Positions 1,108-9,281 of a DNA stretch of 10,538 nucleotides are shown piece after piece. The stretch comes from a bacterium. GTDB lineage: Bacteria > Coprothermobacterota > Coprothermobacteria > Coprothermobacterales > JAADFF01. Position 1 is the first letter of the stretch; each line of letters begins with the position of its first letter. The DNA lies in assembly GCA_027063755.1 (NCBI GenBank), contig JAMORD010000057.1, positions 1-10,538 of the forward strand, written 5' to 3'. The notes beneath the pieces are model-generated. The model was given only the letters and a program-made list of their open reading frames with translations. It did no database searches and had not been told where the DNA came from. Both the position numbers and the translations under genes were made by a program.

Positions 1108-1976
1108 GTATCACAGACCTTAGCAGAGACGATATTATGGGCATTATCAACAGGGCACTGGAGTTTAAAAAGATGAAGAAACAGCCTCAGATACTAAACG
1201 GAAAATTTATTGTCACAGCATTCTTTGAGCCATCTACCCGCACAAAGCTCTCTTTTCACAGGGCTATCAAGGGACTGGGAGGCAAGGTAATAGACTTCAT
1301 AGCCTCTGTATCTGCCATACAAAAGGGAGAAACAGATATTGACACACTACTGACACTGGAGGCAATGGATATTGATGCCTTCGTTGTCAGGGTAAGGAGA
1401 AATGGGGCACCTATAGAATGGAAAAACTATGTAAGGGTACCTATTATCAACGGTGGAGATGGCACCAACCAGCACCCCACTCAGGCACTACTGGACCTTA
1501 CCACCATGTATGAGCACTTTGGCAGACTAAACCTTAAAGTTGCCATTGTAGGAGACATACTACACTCCCGTGTGGCAAACTCACTCACACAGGGGCTTCT
1601 CATGTTCGGAGGAAATGTGCGTTTCTGCGGACCTAAAGAGTTTGTTCCTTCCAGATATGATGGTGTAGAGCTTATCACCGACAACCTTGAAGAGGCCCTT
1701 GATGGTGTAGATGTTGTATATGCCCTTAGGGTGCAAAAAGAGAGAATAGAGAAACTACCTATTAACATAGATGAGTTTTTCAGGAGATACCAAATCAACC
1801 ATAAGACCATAAAATTGGCACCAGAACATGCCGTGCTCATGCACCCAGGACCTTTCAACAGAAATATAGAGGTATCAGATAACATTGTGTACTCTGAACG
1901 ATCCCTTATTCTGCAGCAGGTAAGAAACGGTGTCTATTCCCGTATGGCTGTGCTTGAAAGGGTGGTTGGCTCATGA
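1095..1976 (+). CDS. pyrB: Aspartate carbamoyltransferase, catalytic chain
   Basis: PyrB joins carbamoyl phosphate and L-aspartate to form N-carbamoylaspartate, the committed step of UMP synthesis, in the cytoplasm as a trimer. Visible motifs are FFEPSTRTKLSF (43-54, carbamoyl-phosphate loop), the 80s-loop Lys in QKGET (76-80), GDGTNQHPTQALLDL (121-135), GDILHSRVANS (153-163), the aspartate-side LRVQKER (211-217) and HPGPFNRN (250-257). At 293 residues it is close to the usual catalytic chain length. The start is fixed by a G run, AAGGGGGG (1081-1088), six bases before ATG 1095. No pyrI follows, so it is likely an unregulated trimer or regulated only by transcription. It is the first gene after the attenuator; its TGA overlaps the pyrC ATG by 4 bases. 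Confidence 0.97.
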   Translation: MDLLSITDLSRDDIMGIINRALEFKKMKKQPQILNGKFIVTAFFEPSTRTKLSFHRAIKGLGGKVIDFIASVSAIQKGETDIDTLLTLEAMDIDAFVVRVRRNGAPIEWKNYVRVPIINGGDGTNQHPTQALLDLTTMYEHFGRLNLKVAIVGDILHSRVANSLTQGLLMFGGNVRFCGPKEFVPSRYDGVELITDNLEEALDGVDVVYALRVQKERIEKLPINIDEFFRRYQINHKTIKLAPEHAVLMHPGPFNRNIEVSDNIVYSERSLILQQVRNGVYSRMAVLERVVGS

Positions 1977-3088
1977 AACTCTATGATCCTATAAAGAAGA
2001 TAGAGTATACAGCAGATATACCTATCCCCCATGGCAGTGGCGAGGGACTCTTAGGAGTCCCTCTTTTTTTAGATATGCACACCCATGTAAGGTATCCCCA
2101 GTTTGAAGGCTACGACATCCTTGGGGAGGCATGCCTAAAGGGTGGATTCGGTATATGCACCATTCAACCCAACACCAAGCCAAGACTGGAAAGGGCATCT
2201 ACCATTGAAATACACAAGAGGGCATCGCAGGGGTACCCTGTCAAGTTTCTCTTCACCTCCAGTTTATTTGGAGAAGACACATCTATGGGTGTGGCATACT
2301 CCACCGATGGGCTACAATATGATACATCACAGCTGTGGTACGCCCTAAAAACCCATACCCCAAGACTACTGATGGACCACAGTCAGATATATGAGATAGA
2401 TGGCATGTTTTACCCCGGGGCACCATACCCATCGTATAGGCCACTGCGTGGTGAATCTATAGCCGTATTCCGTACGGTGATGCTGGGTATAGAGGCAGGC
2501 TGGAGCAGATTTCATATACAGCACATCACATCACCACATACAGTAGAAACTATACAGCACCTAAAGAAGTATACCAGTGTCACATCTGAAATCACACCAC
2601 ACCATCTGCTTTTATCTGCCGAGGACATAAGTACTCCCAATATGAAGATAAACCCACCACTGGCACCAGACAAGGATAGAAAAACACTTGTTGACATGAC
2701 AAAGAAAGGGCTCATTGATGTGCTGGCAACAGACCATGCACCACATCCACCTAAATCTGCAGACTATGCCAAAGCACCATACGGCTCTTCGCATATAGAA
2801 GTGGCATTTTCGGCTTTCTACACAGCCCTTGAAGATATACACCTTGTTGTAGATATGCTGACAGTGAAACCGGCAAAGATATTGGGGGTAGATATTCCCC
2901 CCATGCCAGAGAATATGGTTGTTATAGACCCACAGGCAACCTTCATCGTAGACAGTAAGGAGTTTGTCTCCCTGGGGAAAAACACGGCATTTGAGGGTAC
3001 GACACTGAGGGGCAAAGTTGTTGGTGTAAAGGTTGGTGGCACATGGAGATACTGGGACGGCAGTTTATGGAGGTGTAAACATGCATAG
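1973..3088 (+). CDS. pyrC: Dihydroorotase, short divergent form
   Basis: PyrC cyclises carbamoylaspartate to dihydroorotate, using zinc bound by an amidohydrolase barrel. Motifs seen are DMHTHVR (34-40, first zinc His pair), QPNTKP (65-70), His136 in DHSQ, His184 in QHITS, EITPHH (206-211), KINPPLAP (225-232) and ATDHAPH (252-258). At 371 residues it is shorter than the usual class I enzyme (about 420). The common REPG after the first motif reads RYPQ, and the FxDDG segment reads YSTDG (109-113), so one of the two Asp residues there is Thr. Catalytic competence is likely because the other ligands are kept. It starts by the ATGA overlap with pyrB and ends 8 bases inside pyrK, a sign of translational coupling. 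Confidence 0.93.
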   Translation: MKLYDPIKKIEYTADIPIPHGSGEGLLGVPLFLDMHTHVRYPQFEGYDILGEACLKGGFGICTIQPNTKPRLERASTIEIHKRASQGYPVKFLFTSSLFGEDTSMGVAYSTDGLQYDTSQLWYALKTHTPRLLMDHSQIYEIDGMFYPGAPYPSYRPLRGESIAVFRTVMLGIEAGWSRFHIQHITSPHTVETIQHLKKYTSVTSEITPHHLLLSAEDISTPNMKINPPLAPDKDRKTLVDMTKKGLIDVLATDHAPHPPKSADYAKAPYGSSHIEVAFSAFYTALEDIHLVVDMLTVKPAKILGVDIPPMPENMVVIDPQATFIVDSKEFVSLGKNTAFEGTTLRGKVVGVKVGGTWRYWDGSLWRCKHA

Positions 3089-3740
3089 GTGGGAAAACAA
3101 GACCATACACATAAAAAAGCGGTTTAAGCTCACAGATGACACATACATACTGGTGCTAAGAGAACATATAGATTTCACGCCTGGACAGTTCATTATGATA
3201 GAAAACCCTATGGCAACCCGCAAACCCTTTATACTGGGCTACTTTGGTGAAGACACCGCCCTTGCCGTACAGGTTAAAGGTGAAGGCACAAGGTGGATTG
3301 TCAACCAGTCGGTGCTAAGGGCACACTATCCGCTGGGTAAACCGTTTATACCACCACAGGGTAAAGGCATAGCCATTGTCTCACCGGCCAGTTTGACATT
3401 TGGATGCAGCATGTTCAGAATATATGGCACCGATGTCTTGCTGGGCTCCCGCAAAGAGATACTCACAGATATACCCTTTCCCTCTGTCATAGGTGATAGT
3501 GCATTTGCAGATAAGATCAGGGAGATAAAAGGTGGGTACGACTATTATGTTGTCAACGGTTCACGGGGCATGGAAAAGTTTGTATACGACACCGTAGGAG
3601 AGGGTGTTTTTGTATCTCTTGAAGAATATATGGCATGTGGCATTGGTGCATGCAAAGGCTGTGCTATAGAGACGAAAGATGGCATTAAGCATGTGTGCAC
3701 CGATGGTCCCATTTTCAGAGGTGATGAGATATGGTTTTAA
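3081..3740 (+). CDS. pyrK: Dihydroorotate dehydrogenase electron-transfer subunit, short variant
   Basis: PyrK pairs with class 1B PyrD and normally passes electrons from dihydroorotate through FAD and a [2Fe-2S] cluster to NAD+. The cluster motif is clear: ACGIGACKGC with a later Cys (C186, C191, C194, C206), preceded by SLEEYM. An FAD-type PGQF (34-37) and RKPF (47-50) are present. The middle is unusual: where the family has a GGGxGxAP nucleotide loop the sequence reads IVSPASLTFG (99-108), and where it has CGPxxM it reads NGSRGM (159-164). Total length is 219 against about 255-260 usually. ATG 3081 is chosen over an upstream GTG at 3033 because GGAGGTG (3069-3075) precedes it. It overlaps pyrC by 8 bases and pyrD by 10. 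The subunit call is safe; use of NAD is doubtful. Confidence 0.92.
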   Translation: MHRWENKTIHIKKRFKLTDDTYILVLREHIDFTPGQFIMIENPMATRKPFILGYFGEDTALAVQVKGEGTRWIVNQSVLRAHYPLGKPFIPPQGKGIAIVSPASLTFGCSMFRIYGTDVLLGSRKEILTDIPFPSVIGDSAFADKIREIKGGYDYYVVNGSRGMEKFVYDTVGEGVFVSLEEYMACGIGACKGCAIETKDGIKHVCTDGPIFRGDEIWF

Positions 3741-4567
3741 ATCTCAGAAGCCCGCTTGCTGTAGCATCTGGACCCGGTGGCATGGGCGAGTATATGGAGT
3801 TTATAGATCCTGAGACTCTTGGTGCCTATATACTGAAAACCATCACGCTACATCCCAAAGAAGGGGCCACACCTCCACGGCTCAGGGCAGGGAAAGACTT
3901 TGTCATCAACCGTATAGGACTTGAAAATCCGGGTATAGATGTCTTTGTAGAAGATGTGGCATCTGGCAAATACAACTACCTCTTTGAAAAAGTGCCTGTA
4001 ATACTCTCCCTTGGTGGAGACTCCCCAGATGAGTATAAGGAGATCGCACGGAAGTCTCTCCCCATCATAGATAGATTTATAGCTGTGGAATACAACTTCT
4101 CGTGTCCCAATGTGGAGGCAGGAGGGCTTGCCATTGTCTCAGATAGAATGGTGCTAAAAGACATTATGGTATCTGTCAGAGATATACTGAAAGACACCTT
4201 TCTCATAGCCAAGTTTGGCATAGAGGGTATATTTGTAGAGCAGGCATCAGATATGGTGAAAGATACAGGTTGGAATGGCATCACACTTATCAACACTATT
4301 AGGGGCATAGTAAAAACACCAGATGGCTACATCAGAGGAGGCATATCCGGTGCAGTGCTAAAACCTATTGGCATGAGGGCTGTGTATGAAGTCAGACAGA
4401 GGCATGGGGATATGTTTATCATGGCATCAGGTGGTGTGTATACACCAGAAGATGCCAAAGACTACCTTGATGTAGGTGCCAATGCCGTTCAGATAGGCTC
4501 GGCCCTATTTAAAAATCCATCAATTATTGACGAGCTATATGAGGGCTTATCTGACAAATCATCGTGA
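3731..4567 (+). CDS. pyrD: Dihydroorotate dehydrogenase, class 1B catalytic subunit
   Basis: PyrD oxidises dihydroorotate to orotate on FMN. The class 1 active-site Cys is seen in NFSCPN (122-127, C125), and FMN or substrate residues in LKTIT (35-39), NRIGLENPG (60-68), AKFG (160-163), LINTIRG (186-192), GGISGAVLKPI (203-213), ASGGV (232-236) and NAVQIGSALF (251-260). Presence of pyrK directly upstream and Cys rather than Ser as base mark class 1B. At 278 residues it is slightly short of the typical 300-310. The start at 3731 has AGAGGTGA (3717-3724) at correct distance and overlaps pyrK by 10 bases. Its TGA lies inside a 21-bp palindrome. Confidence 0.96.
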   Translation: MVLNLRSPLAVASGPGGMGEYMEFIDPETLGAYILKTITLHPKEGATPPRLRAGKDFVINRIGLENPGIDVFVEDVASGKYNYLFEKVPVILSLGGDSPDEYKEIARKSLPIIDRFIAVEYNFSCPNVEAGGLAIVSDRMVLKDIMVSVRDILKDTFLIAKFGIEGIFVEQASDMVKDTGWNGITLINTIRGIVKTPDGYIRGGISGAVLKPIGMRAVYEVRQRHGDMFIMASGGVYTPEDAKDYLDVGANAVQIGSALFKNPSIIDELYEGLSDKSS

Positions 4568-4756: not shown

Positions 4757-5398
4757 ATGAATACACCGGTGCTGAGCCTTGACATGAAAGACCCACTGCA
4801 TTTTATTGACACACACGGTAGTTTTGCCGTTGTCAAGGTGGGTCACAATCTGGCGGTTAATGGCAAGGGCATTATTTCAGCCTTGGCAGACAGGGGGCTA
4901 AAGGTCATCTTAGACTTAAAATTTGTAGATATACCATCAACTATAGAGCGCTCCATCAAATCGTGGGATCATGAGGCCATTATAGGTTTCACCGTGCATT
5001 CTGCATCAGGACTTGAGGCCATGAAAGCTGCACGGCAGGCAACAGACAAGCATGTCTTTGCCGTCATAAAGCTGACATCTATAACGGGTACGCTAGAAGA
5101 TTACATGGACACTATACAGAAACTGTATGAGATAGGACTTGACTTTGTGCTTCCGGGACAGTGGGCTATAGCATTAAGAGACAAGCTGAAAGATGCTGCC
5201 TTTCTTGTGCCCGGTATACGCATGGATATACCGGCAGGAGACCAGAAAGATGTCGTTTCTGTGGAAGATGTAAAGTGTATAGCAGACTATCTCGTTATAG
5301 GCAGAGAGGTATACCTGTCGGAAAATCCACGCGTTAAAATGCAGAAGATTAAAGAAGTGTTGGGCGTAGGGAGAGACGGATATGGACACTGTTATTAA
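4757..5398 (+). CDS. pyrF: Orotidine 5'-phosphate decarboxylase
   Basis: PyrF decarboxylates OMP to UMP, the last step of the pathway. The catalytic DLKFVDIP (53-60; Asp53, Lys55, Asp58) is complete, Asp9 and Lys27 are likely ligand residues, and the phosphate side is seen in TVHSASG (79-85), VPGIR (151-155) and [11 protein letters not shown] (181-191). At 213 residues it matches the short bacterial and archaeal type. ATG 4757 is chosen over GTG 4703 because the G run GGGGGG (4744-4749) lies seven bases before it and because the family starts near its LSLD segment. Like pyrB, it uses a poly-G ribosome site, unlike the internal genes. It opens the second part of the operon after the repeat-rich gap and overlaps pyrE by 17 bases. 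Confidence 0.96.
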
Positions 5399-5951
5399 AA
5401 AGCTTCTTGAAAAGACCGGGGCCCTACAAAAAGGACATTTTATACTCTCTTCTGGCAAACATTCTGAATACTATGTGCAATGTGCAAGGCTCTTTGAAAA
5501 CCCATCTATTGGCGACACTGTAGGTGCCATGGTAGCACAGCTTATTACGAAGTACAGCCCTCAAACCATTGTGGGACCTGCCATGGGTGGTATTCATCTG
5601 GCATACACTACAGCAAAGTATCTGGGAATAAGAAATATCTTTGCGGAGAGGGAAAAAGATACGGGCAAGATGGCCCTCAGAAGGGGCTTTACAGTCTCAC
5701 CCGGCGAAAAGGTTGCCGTTGTTGAAGATGTCGTTACAACAGGTGGCTCTGTCAAGGAGGTTATAAAGGTGCTACAGAAACATGGGGCCGATGTGGTAGC
5801 CGTGGCATCTATTGTGTATAGGGGGCAGAATGTAGACTTTGGCGTACCATATTACTACCTTATCAAGCTTGACTTTCCTGTGTATGAACCTGAAAACTGT
5901 CCCCTGTGCAAACAGGGAATACCGGCAGTCAAACCGGGCAGTAGAAAGTAG
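5382..5951 (+). CDS. pyrE: Orotate phosphoribosyltransferase
   Basis: PyrE joins orotate to PRPP giving OMP, the PyrF substrate. The PRPP-binding signature [11 protein letters not shown] (113-123) is intact, with the N-terminal [12 protein letters not shown] (20-31), GPAMGG (65-70) and the flexible-loop Lys and Arg of [15 protein letters not shown] (88-102). The C-terminal CPLCKQG (173-179) is found in many bacterial members. Length 189 is normal. AGGGAG (5368-5373) lies eight bases before ATG 5382, inside the end of pyrF; the 17-base overlap argues for coupled translation. No clear plus-strand terminator follows it. Confidence 0.96.
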
Positions 5952-6346: not shown

Positions 6347-6410
6347 AAGGGGGCTACAGCCCCCTTCATCTATACACCATTATCTTCTGAGGCCTTTACA
6401 TAAAACATAA
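6030..6410 (+). other. Long open frame with one TGA and no start codon, possible gene remnant
   Basis: This frame runs 79 codons from just after a TAG to TGA 6267-6269, then 46 more codons (with an ATG at 6273) to TAA 6408-6410. Within the first part there is no ATG, GTG, TTG or CTG. Sample translation: KKGVFHCIVTTKELTILPYK and LSINTRKRGISNIGRIKKF, then MKQQKPIYYYVKRTMF. I recognise no family. From about 6347 it only reads through the terminator and the antisense of the lipoprotein gene. It may be chance or a decayed gene. Confidence 0.15.
6341..6366 (-). terminator. Terminator of the minus-strand lipoprotein gene
   Basis: Read on the minus strand, the stem AAGGGGGC with GCCCCCTT (8 bp, plus positions 6359-6366 and 6347-6354) has a four-base loop. 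It is followed by TGC and a T run. It begins three bases after the lipoprotein stop codon. On the plus strand no T run follows, so it would not serve pyrE. Confidence 0.9.
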
Positions 6411-8043
6411 GGCTATCATACTGACCATCGGCATCTACATCTTCGGCGAGGAACAGGTAATCATATCCGTCTTTCTGCCCTACATAGTAAACATCTACAC
6501 TGCCATCATCGTTGGTATCTTTATAAAGATCATCATCAGATACAGAAACACCAAAAGCCTCTGTAACAACATCCCTTATAAATTTCCTTATACCCTTTTC
6601 CGTGTAATCATCCTCTTCATCTCTCAGGTCGTTGCCAAAGTAAATAAGATGCCCTATCTCTTCTTTGTGCATGTCTATAAATGCCATCTCACTTTCCCAG
6701 CCATAGTAAACACCAAGATCGTCGTAAAGGGTTGTCATAAACTGCTTATATAGCTCAAATGGACCTTCAGCAGGTATATTGTCTACATAATCTGTCAGCC
6801 CCACTTTTGGGGTAGTGCACACCCTGGTGCTCCCGCCCTCAAGTGAATGAACCTCTCCATCAAGGTTTTTCTCTTCTATATATGCCTTTACTTCATCCTC
6901 ACTGACCCCTTCTATATCAAAGCACAGGGCCTCTTCATCTTCTGGGAAGTTTTCAAAACCATCTACACCAGTATCGGTAAGCATGAGATATGTAGCCTTA
7001 AAGTGCCTTGCAACATCTGCCCACTGGGGAGATGCCACATAATCAAGTACATGATTGATAACATCAGAAAACACGGTCTTTGTCTCTTCGGTATTGGAAG
7101 TAGATGAAGAACCATTATCTTCTTTTTCATCGGTATTTGACGATGTATTCTCGGAACCCTCATCCATGACAAACGACCAAGGACCGGCAATCTCTATGGT
7201 AAATGTGTAATTGGTGTCTACGCCAATGTAAAGCTCTTTTCCACCCTCATCAAAGGTGTAAAAACAACCGTCTTCATCGCAATAGATACCATCCTGTGTT
7301 ATATCTTTAACACCTGCCTTTTTAAACAAACCACACATATAGCTCTTTGCATCAGAAAGAGAAGAGAAATCTCCACTGGAAAATTCCATACGACTACGGA
7401 AAAATTTGCCTGAAAAAGTCTCGTCAACATCTTGATATGGGGCAGTAGTATTATCTTTGGTGGGAATAGAGATGTAAAAATCTTTAATAGAGACATCGCC
7501 AAGGTTACCAAGGGCATATTTGTAATACTCCATAAGACCTGTAGATGGATCAGATTTAATAGCATTAAGCACATCGGGTATTTCTCCCCTTATACGGAAA
7601 AATAGTATATCGTTATCTGTATCTGCATAGGGTTCATAATCATCTGGCACACCAAAGGCAGCAGCCAATGTTTTTATATCTTTGTCCTTTATATCAGATA
7701 TGTCAAGGGCATAACTGCTACCTCCGCTGTCTACGGCAAAGTATCTTACACGACATACATATTTCTGGAGAATAGCTGTTCCCTTATCTCCGGCATGATT
7801 GGCTATCCACTCCTGAAGAGAGGCATACGCACCCTCGCCACCGTCACATGTCTCAACGGAAAAAGAACTTTCAGAAGAAGATTTATTTGAGCTGTTATTT
7901 TCGCTACTTTCAGATGTCTGTTGGGAAGAGTTATTTTCTGAACTCTGGGAAGAGCCTCCTCCTGATGGACCACATGCACTCAGCACAAGGGAAACAGACA
8001 GCAAAAGGACAATAAGAATAAATAGTTTCTGCAATCTCTTCAT
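6370..8043 (-). CDS. Secreted lipoprotein with two related domains, function unknown
   Basis: The N-terminus is a lipoprotein signal: basic MKRLQK, a hydrophobic core, and the lipobox LSAC with Cys24 as the lipid site, so it should be anchored outside the membrane. Residues 25-60 are a Ser/Asn/Gln-rich linker. Two domains follow, about 74-288 and 326-549, joined by a second Ser/Thr/Asp-rich linker (293-323). They look like a diverged duplication: GVKDITQDGIYCDEDG (244-259) lines up with GVSVSDDDLYKDTNDDG (498-514). DTNDDGSVD (509-517) and DVDADGQYD (535-543) resemble calcium-binding loops. Seven Cys besides Cys24 could form disulfides. GGAGGTG lies seven bases before the ATG. It starts 80 bases after the membrane gene with no terminator between, so they are likely co-transcribed. 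I do not recognise the family. Confidence 0.9.
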   Translation of the reverse strand: MKRLQKLFILIVLLLSVSLVLSACGPSGGGSSQSSENNSSQQTSESSENNSSNKSSSESSFSVETCDGGEGAYASLQEWIANHAGDKGTAILQKYVCRVRYFAVDSGGSSYALDISDIKDKDIKTLAAAFGVPDDYEPYADTDNDILFFRIRGEIPDVLNAIKSDPSTGLMEYYKYALGNLGDVSIKDFYISIPTKDNTTAPYQDVDETFSGKFFRSRMEFSSGDFSSLSDAKSYMCGLFKKAGVKDITQDGIYCDEDGCFYTFDEGGKELYIGVDTNYTFTIEIAGPWSFVMDEGSENTSSNTDEKEDNGSSSTSNTEETKTVFSDVINHVLDYVASPQWADVARHFKATYLMLTDTGVDGFENFPEDEEALCFDIEGVSEDEVKAYIEEKNLDGEVHSLEGGSTRVCTTPKVGLTDYVDNIPAEGPFELYKQFMTTLYDDLGVYYGWESEMAFIDMHKEEIGHLIYFGNDLRDEEDDYTEKGIRKFIRDVVTEAFGVSVSDDDLYKDTNDDGSVDVYYVGQKDGYDYLFLAEDVDADGQYDSLMFYVKASEDNGV

Positions 8044-8123: not shown

Positions 8124-9281
8124 TTACACACCTATATGAATAAGACCCAGATATACCCCCATGAAGAAGGCATTGGCTTCTTGAGAAGAAACAGAGGTAT
8201 ATGCAATAGCGTCAATCATCTTTACCTTGTGAGGAAACTTATTGTGATATTTTTGTCGCATATAGTTCCATACACGATATCGGTTATACCATGGAATGGA
8301 TGGATGATAGATACTTGACGGCACATACAGATAGGCCACCGAAAAGCTCACAATGGCGGCAAGAAACGCAAAATATGTCAACCCAAAGTAAGGAATAGAC
8401 CATGCCAATGTAGACATAAAGAAAGAAAGGGCATATGTAGACTTATATTTATCATAGGCAAGCATAATATGCCGCGGTAAATTAAATGGAGGATATCTAT
8501 CAAAGGGATATGGAGGCTTAAACTCCGTAATAATATGGGTAAACATAATTAAACCAATGTGTTGTATACGGGTAAAAGCCTTGCTTTGTCTATCAATAGC
8601 AGCCTGTATATCAGGCTCTGAAAGATATTTTATCAGAGTGCTAATGGTAAGAGCATACTGAAAATCGTCACGATTATAATCTATAGATATAGTTTCCCTA
8701 ACAGCAGCTTTTTTCAAAACATCACACACCTCATCAAACACAAGAGATACACCACCACATTTTCTAACATACATAACAATATCATCGTCGTAAGGTTCGG
8801 CTACAATAAGACCACCTTTTATCATTTCAAGAAGAGTCCCCCAAAACACCTGCTCTCCCAATGCAGCATATTTCATCATGCGCTTATATATATAAGAGGG
8901 AATATTTTTCTTTGTGAGAAAGCCAATATATACATGGTACGGATCTTTACCATCTACAATATCCTCTATCATCGTAGGATGATACAATGCACCCCTTCTA
9001 TACGGTTTGCCAACATCTGCCACCACACCATCAATTTTAGCCCCTTCATTTTGATAAAAATCAACAAATATATGTCTTGTACGCATAAATACCCGATAGG
9101 ACACATATCCCATGATGAGTGCTCCCATGATAAAAGGTAATGTGTATATAAACAGCCATGTGCTATCACCAATATACACAAAGTAAAGCGACAATACCAG
9201 AGAAAACACAAGATACCCCCAAGTAAGTTGGGCCGTTTTATACCGCCTGAGAGCATTGAACATCCTCTGCAATCTTTTCAT
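8124..9281 (-). CDS. Integral membrane protein, function unknown
   Basis: The 385-residue product has two hydrophobic segments near the N-terminus (about 19-38 and 42-62) and a hydrophobic C-terminal region (about 283-321) that could form two more. Between them is a soluble part of some 220 residues containing KKNIPSYIYKRMMKYAALGE and a GGLIVAEPYDDD stretch. The C-terminal tail has several Tyr and Trp residues. No known family motif is seen. It begins with MKRLQRMF, close to MKRLQKLF of the next gene. There is no ribosome site ahead of the ATG; instead TATAAT lies six bases upstream, so the transcript may be leaderless. It is probably transcribed with the lipoprotein gene, and the two may act at the cell envelope together; that is inference. 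Confidence 0.85.
   Translation of the reverse strand: MKRLQRMFNALRRYKTAQLTWGYLVFSLVLSLYFVYIGDSTWLFIYTLPFIMGALIMGYVSYRVFMRTRHIFVDFYQNEGAKIDGVVADVGKPYRRGALYHPTMIEDIVDGKDPYHVYIGFLTKKNIPSYIYKRMMKYAALGEQVFWGTLLEMIKGGLIVAEPYDDDIVMYVRKCGGVSLVFDEVCDVLKKAAVRETISIDYNRDDFQYALTISTLIKYLSEPDIQAAIDRQSKAFTRIQHIGLIMFTHIITEFKPPYPFDRYPPFNLPRHIMLAYDKYKSTYALSFFMSTLAWSIPYFGLTYFAFLAAIVSFSVAYLYVPSSIYHPSIPWYNRYRVWNYMRQKYHNKFPHKVKMIDAIAYTSVSSQEANAFFMGVYLGLIHIGV

Follow-up and report, generated by a model that had tools for sequence, protein, structure and literature searches.

Variant PyrK subunits without the usual NAD-site motifs in a clade of Thermotogota and in a pyr operon probably acquired from it

Dihydroorotate dehydrogenase (DHODH) catalyses the sole redox step of pyrimidine synthesis, and its forms are classified by their electron acceptor. 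Class 1B enzymes have been described as NAD+-linked, and in the Lactococcus lactis enzyme electrons travel from FMN through a [2Fe-2S] cluster to FAD and on to NAD+ (PMC8097209). The stretch of DNA analysed here (the window, 10,538 nucleotides) encodes a PyrK in which both signatures of the NAD domain are replaced, and so raises the question of where the electrons of its PyrDK complex would go.

The pyrK gene, encoding this variant electron-transfer subunit (3081–3740, plus strand; 219 aa and a stop codon), overlaps pyrC upstream and pyrD downstream. It belongs to a compact operon of the order pyrB-C-K-D-F-E, in which most gene ends overlap and all genes lie on the plus strand. Aspartate carbamoyltransferase (pyrB, 1095–1976) was identified by a Pfam match, the partner dihydroorotate dehydrogenase (pyrD, 3731–4567) and orotidine-5'-phosphate decarboxylase (pyrF, 4757–5398, with the start taken at 4757) by Pfam and NCBIfam, and orotate phosphoribosyltransferase (pyrE, 5382–5951) by a Pribosyltran match together with its place in the operon. 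The dihydroorotase gene (pyrC, 1973–3088) is of the Thermotogota type according to NCBIfam and sequence comparison. Its product scores 19.4 bits with Pfam Amidohydro_1, below the cut-off of 25, and 451.6 bits with one of the NCBIfam models for dihydroorotase; judged by sequence, PyrC of this type appears to form a divergent dihydroorotase clade. Two minus-strand open reading frames, one encoding a lipoprotein-like protein of 557 aa with an LSACG lipobox (6370–8043) and the other a protein of 385 aa with apparent membrane segments (8124–9281), have counterparts downstream of the operon in the congeneric genome L004. No plasmid record of the locus was returned by megablast.

PyrD is a class-1-type DHODH by its NCBIfam matches. 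The catalytic residues, Cys, Lys and Asn, are present in 38/38 variants, the motif NFSCPN keeping the Cys, and with this active site intact the oxidation of dihydroorotate at FMN should be normal. In the window's genome (1.5 Mb in 251 contigs, 88% complete) no other DHODH was found, a PF01180 search returning this PyrD alone. Two further proteins with the PyrK-type cluster domain (PF10418) are encoded on other contigs, C78 and C127; the one on C78 resembles a hydrogenase gamma subunit and keeps CGP. These searches were directed at a compensating second DHODH or NAD-competent PyrK, a copy of which may yet lie in the part that the assembly lacks.

The sole Pfam domain of the window PyrK is PF10418, the PyrK [2Fe-2S] domain (residues 181–217, E = 5.5e-16), with a score of 58.4 bits (cut-off 23.9). 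The protein was compared by alignment with 35 ordinary PyrK drawn from several phyla, and 36 variant PyrK were aligned as well. As the initial annotation had stated, the four cluster cysteines are intact (C186, C191, C194 and C206; 3636–3698, by Pfam and alignment), and they are likewise present in 36/36 variants. Its reading of both NAD-domain signatures as changed is borne out by the alignment, in which VSPASLTF (residues 100–107; 3378–3401) replaces the GGGxGxAP pyrophosphate loop and NGSRGM (residues 159–164; 3555–3572) replaces CGPxxM. The Gly at the fifth position of the glycine loop occurs in 35/35 ordinary PyrK and in 1/36 variants; the latter have Pro at loop position G3 in 31/36 cases and the Cys of a replacement motif, Ser-Pro-x-Cys, in 32/36. 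The Cys of CGP is likewise invariant in ordinary PyrK (35/35) and absent from the variants (0/36), all 36 of which read GS where GP stood. Opposite the T-D-D-G-S of ordinary PyrK lies VIGDSAF (residues 136–142; 3486–3506), a segment whose Gly-(Asp/Asn) is found in 36/36 variants. Since the replacement motif is conserved, the altered site has a role, possibly as a rebuilt nucleotide site or as a dock for a partner. Separately, a histidine precedes the last cluster cysteine (His 204, in KHVC) in 35/36 variants and in 1/35 ordinary PyrK, and it may tune the cluster potential.

The FAD region, earlier taken to be intact, is so in part. GxGT and KPF are kept, but RKPFI (residues 47–51; 3219–3233) stands in place of RRPFS, retaining the basic residue and the aromatic while an Ile replaces the serine that contacts flavin N5. 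That serine is present in 33/35 ordinary PyrK and in none of the 36 variants, in which the position is occupied by T (10), V (8), I (7), G (5), A (4) or M (2). In plant FNR, Ser96 hydrogen-bonds flavin N5 and modulates NADP+ affinity, semiquinone stability and electron-transfer rate (PMC9687028). Across the variants GxG and K-P are found in 36/36, and there is hardly any variation in GxG(T/S), K-P-(F/Y) or the Leu-Gly that comes next.

Taken singly, such changes are tolerated. Thermotoga maritima NfnA is without the Cys of CGP, still binds NADH and has Thr at the N5-Ser position, as do ten variants; seven ordinary PyrK read CGS, and Thermotogota PyrK outside the variant clade combine CGS with an intact glycine loop. 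What counts in these alignments is the joint, clade-wide loss of NAD-site elements: the glycine loop, the Cys and Pro of CGP and the N5 Ser are absent from 36/36 variants. None of the 36 matches Pfam NAD_binding_1, compared with 18 rows of a 41-row control set containing 32 ordinary members, and loss of the NAD(P)-binding signatures, suggested at first for the window protein, is strongly supported for the whole clade. The same comparison for Pfam FAD_binding_6 gave 0/36 and 17 of the 41 rows (32 ordinary members), the FAD domain of the variants having diverged below Pfam detection. In the ordinary Thermotogota-type PyrK L153, L157, L159, L160, L162 and L073, the glycine loop is largely kept and so is the Cys, with CGS in place of CGP, and several of them are without the usual DDGS segment; such sequences perhaps represent an intermediate state of the NAD site.

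Protein length adds little to this picture. The window PyrK is indeed about 40 residues shorter than the L. lactis protein (261–262 aa), but this is not diagnostic, because L069, L071 and L074, ordinary PyrK from the window's order, are nearly as short, with open frames of 227–236 aa and intact motifs. One of these, L074, served as the control for structure prediction. An AlphaFold2 model of the window PyrK, computed from 69 aligned sequences, has a pLDDT of 95.5 and a pTM of 0.91, and the control model a pLDDT of 95.1. VIA-align superposes the window model onto L. lactis PyrK with Z = 22.0 and an r.m.s.d. of 2.7 over 218 residues (5KSW_B) and Z = 21.8 (1EP1_B), the L. lactis matches overall spanning r.m.s.d. 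values of 2.6–2.7 over 216–218 residues; L074 reaches Z = 26.5 to 5KSW_B. The FNR-like flavin/Rossmann fold is kept, including a beta-barrel predicted with pLDDT above 90. At the pyrophosphate loop, a strand-turn-helix occupies the same place in both models, with LISG-GAGIAP in L074 and AIV-S-PASLTF in the window protein. The loop backbone is kept, with Ser, Pro, Ala and Ser at the glycine positions; Ser-Pro forms a plain helix cap, and the modelled helix begins at P102. The helix after the second strand, present in the control, is coil in the window PyrK. The outcome for an intact Rossmann pocket, which the initial annotation had named as its refuting condition, is mixed: the fold is there (pLDDT ~97–99), but the loop carries Ser-Pro-Ala-Ser, not glycines, and the model indicates an intact fold without the NAD-binding chemistry.

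How widespread the variant is was addressed with a pattern search of contigs, which found it in a Dictyoglomota-labelled MAG (L004, 95%), whose contig agrees in length and coordinates with that of the congener G001, and in two Thermotogota MAGs (L005 and L006). A profile built from these variants and searched against 103 Thermotogota genomes gave strong matches in 38 (E ≤ 2.4e-32), and the next match (G115, E = 1.9e-25) is an ordinary PyrK. In those 38 genomes the variant is the PyrK of the pyr operon, and T. maritima, recognised by an NfnA reading the same as the chain of PDB 4YLF, is among them. Judged from these genomes, the variant is fixed in a clade of heat-loving Thermotogota. None of about 100 other PF10418 proteins was without both NAD motifs; the comparison includes the window itself as row L165, and its one variant row marked 'GGxG' reflects a loose pattern match. 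Among 386 broadly sampled genomes, a non-exhaustive sample, the variant occurred outside Thermotogota only in the window's genus and in G303, which has the same protein as the Thermotogota genome G127. In L104 (genome G152), PyrC and the variant PyrK are fused in one 599-aa frame from 352 (VMIDGERLLLTKKK...), the junction that lies between the two in T. maritima apparently having been deleted; either the fusion of PyrC with PyrK is natural or the assembly is at fault.

In the PyrK tree the variants form one clade (support 100/100). The window and L004 lie inside it, within a 15-row set (99/96) and a 7-row set (96/87), and the nearest Thermotogota row to the window is L112. The PyrK of the window's own order and phylum are ordinary and lie in the opposite half. 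The clade recurs in the PyrD tree (100/100), where a 28-row variant set (95/80) includes the window pair, and the stem branches are long for both PyrD and PyrK (1.23 and 1.19 changes per column, respectively). The window PyrC and PyrD share 41–57% identity with the Thermotogota variants and about 30% with same-order proteins. With the window placed inside the Thermotogota clade and ordinary PyrK in its own order and phylum, the trees are most simply read as a transfer of the pyr operon, which the window's genus very probably obtained from Thermotogota. Having crossed into another phylum, the variant enzyme functions away from the host in which it arose, and this implies that its acceptor is widely available.

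Between the window and its congener L004, dN/dS is 0.076 for pyrK and 0.14 for pyrD, so that both genes are functional. A frameshift, a misassembly or a decaying pseudogene, for which the changed motifs and nothing more would speak, was rejected on the strength of the full-length frame, this low dN/dS for pyrK and 36 conserved copies from many independently assembled genomes; we give it a negligible chance of being correct. The same replacements in 36/36 clade members, with purifying selection on pyrK, exclude chance or sequencing error.

We consider it likely that NAD+ is not the physiological acceptor of the variant PyrDK. The reading we favour, with a probability of roughly 0.57, is a class-1B-derived DHODH of PyrD and PyrK that makes no hydride transfer to NAD+ and passes electrons singly to a protein carrier. 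Dihydroorotate would reduce FMN in PyrD, and the electrons would move one at a time via the [2Fe-2S] cluster of PyrK to its FAD. The FAD, if bound, or otherwise the cluster, would then release electrons one by one to a soluble redox protein docked at the position that nicotinamide would occupy, with no hydride exit to NAD+. Rubredoxin would be the favoured candidate, and ferredoxin or flavodoxin are possible. By potential, rubredoxin is the thermodynamically easier acceptor and a low-potential ferredoxin a difficult one. Rubredoxin is encoded in 36/39 variant genomes, the window's included, a count made in variant genomes alone and hence not discriminating. The pyrB-C-K-D-F-E operon contains no acceptor gene, and nothing in operon or genome singles out any one acceptor, be it the ferredoxin, the flavodoxin or the quinone that the initial annotation had put forward.

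The conservation that shows the altered site to have a role can also be read as selection for nucleotide binding. NAD+ or NADP+ would then still be used, held by a rebuilt site that combines the conserved GS with the N-terminal end of the helix following Ser-Pro-x-Cys. Several observations are in keeping with this: the Rossmann-like fold is modelled with high confidence, Pro, Cys and GS of the replacement motifs are kept as counted above, NfnA tolerates loss of the Cys, the Pro of CGP is dispensable in the seven ordinary PyrK with CGS, and ten variants share the Thr of NfnA at the N5-Ser position. Yet three separate nicotinamide-site elements have gone together, Pro, Ala, Ser or Cys in place of the loop glycines should hinder pyrophosphate binding, and no helix follows the second strand, so that we regard such a site as unlikely, if a serious contender. 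Doubt may also fall on the flavin of PyrK. Were FAD weakly bound or lost, electrons would exit from the [2Fe-2S] cluster, or PyrK would mainly stabilise PyrD, an effect that is mutual between the two subunits in L. lactis (PMC8097209). The missing FAD_binding_6 matches and the loss of the N5 Ser in all variants fit this arrangement, but the near-invariant flavin-domain motifs are as expected if flavin is kept, and the beta-barrel is predicted with confidence; we judge it quite improbable.

The variant may tentatively, at somewhat less than even odds, be regarded as a separate DHODH class, fixed in a large Thermotogota clade, exported horizontally and reoxidised not by NAD+, fumarate or quinone but by a protein that carries single electrons (rubredoxin, ferredoxin or flavodoxin). 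Variant PyrK are likely annotated as ordinary NAD-type subunits, and if NAD+ is unused, the acceptor question reopens for a large Thermotogota group that includes T. maritima. A search of the open-access literature gave no account of a Thermotogota PyrK without the NAD site.

Among known systems, the variant shares with the class 1B PyrK of L. lactis (PDB codes 1EP1–1EP3, 5KSW) the gene order pyrK-pyrD, the fold (Z = 21.8–22), the four [2Fe-2S] cysteines, K/R-P-F and GxGT in the flavin domain and a PyrD partner with the catalytic Cys. It differs in being without the NAD glycine loop, the Cys and Pro of CGP and the flavin-N5 Ser, in an NAD half that lacks one helix, and in length (219 against 261–262 aa). 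T. maritima NfnA (PDB codes 4YLF/4YRY) belongs to the same PF10418 family, has an FNR-like fold (Z = 20.3) and occurs in the same genome as a variant PyrK. NfnA, however, keeps GGGVG, TDDGS and GP, motifs that the variant is without. The NfnA cluster has an Asp ligand (PMC8097209), in contrast to the four Cys of the variant. The partner of NfnA is NfnB, and that of the variant is PyrD, whose gene adjoins. The type 1S DHODH of Sulfolobus solfataricus has two subunits, has been reported without NAD+ use and employs Ser as catalytic base; we know of no natural acceptor established for it. The variant would resemble it as a two-subunit DHODH without NAD+ use, but keeps the catalytic Cys of PyrD in place of that Ser. 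The existence of a type 1S enzyme in Sulfolobus is cited in PMC8107416, and the Sulfolobus acidocaldarius control genome gave no PF10418 match. From its motifs and gene neighbour on the one hand, and its catalytic Cys on the other, the variant enzyme appears to be neither an NfnA nor a type 1S DHODH.
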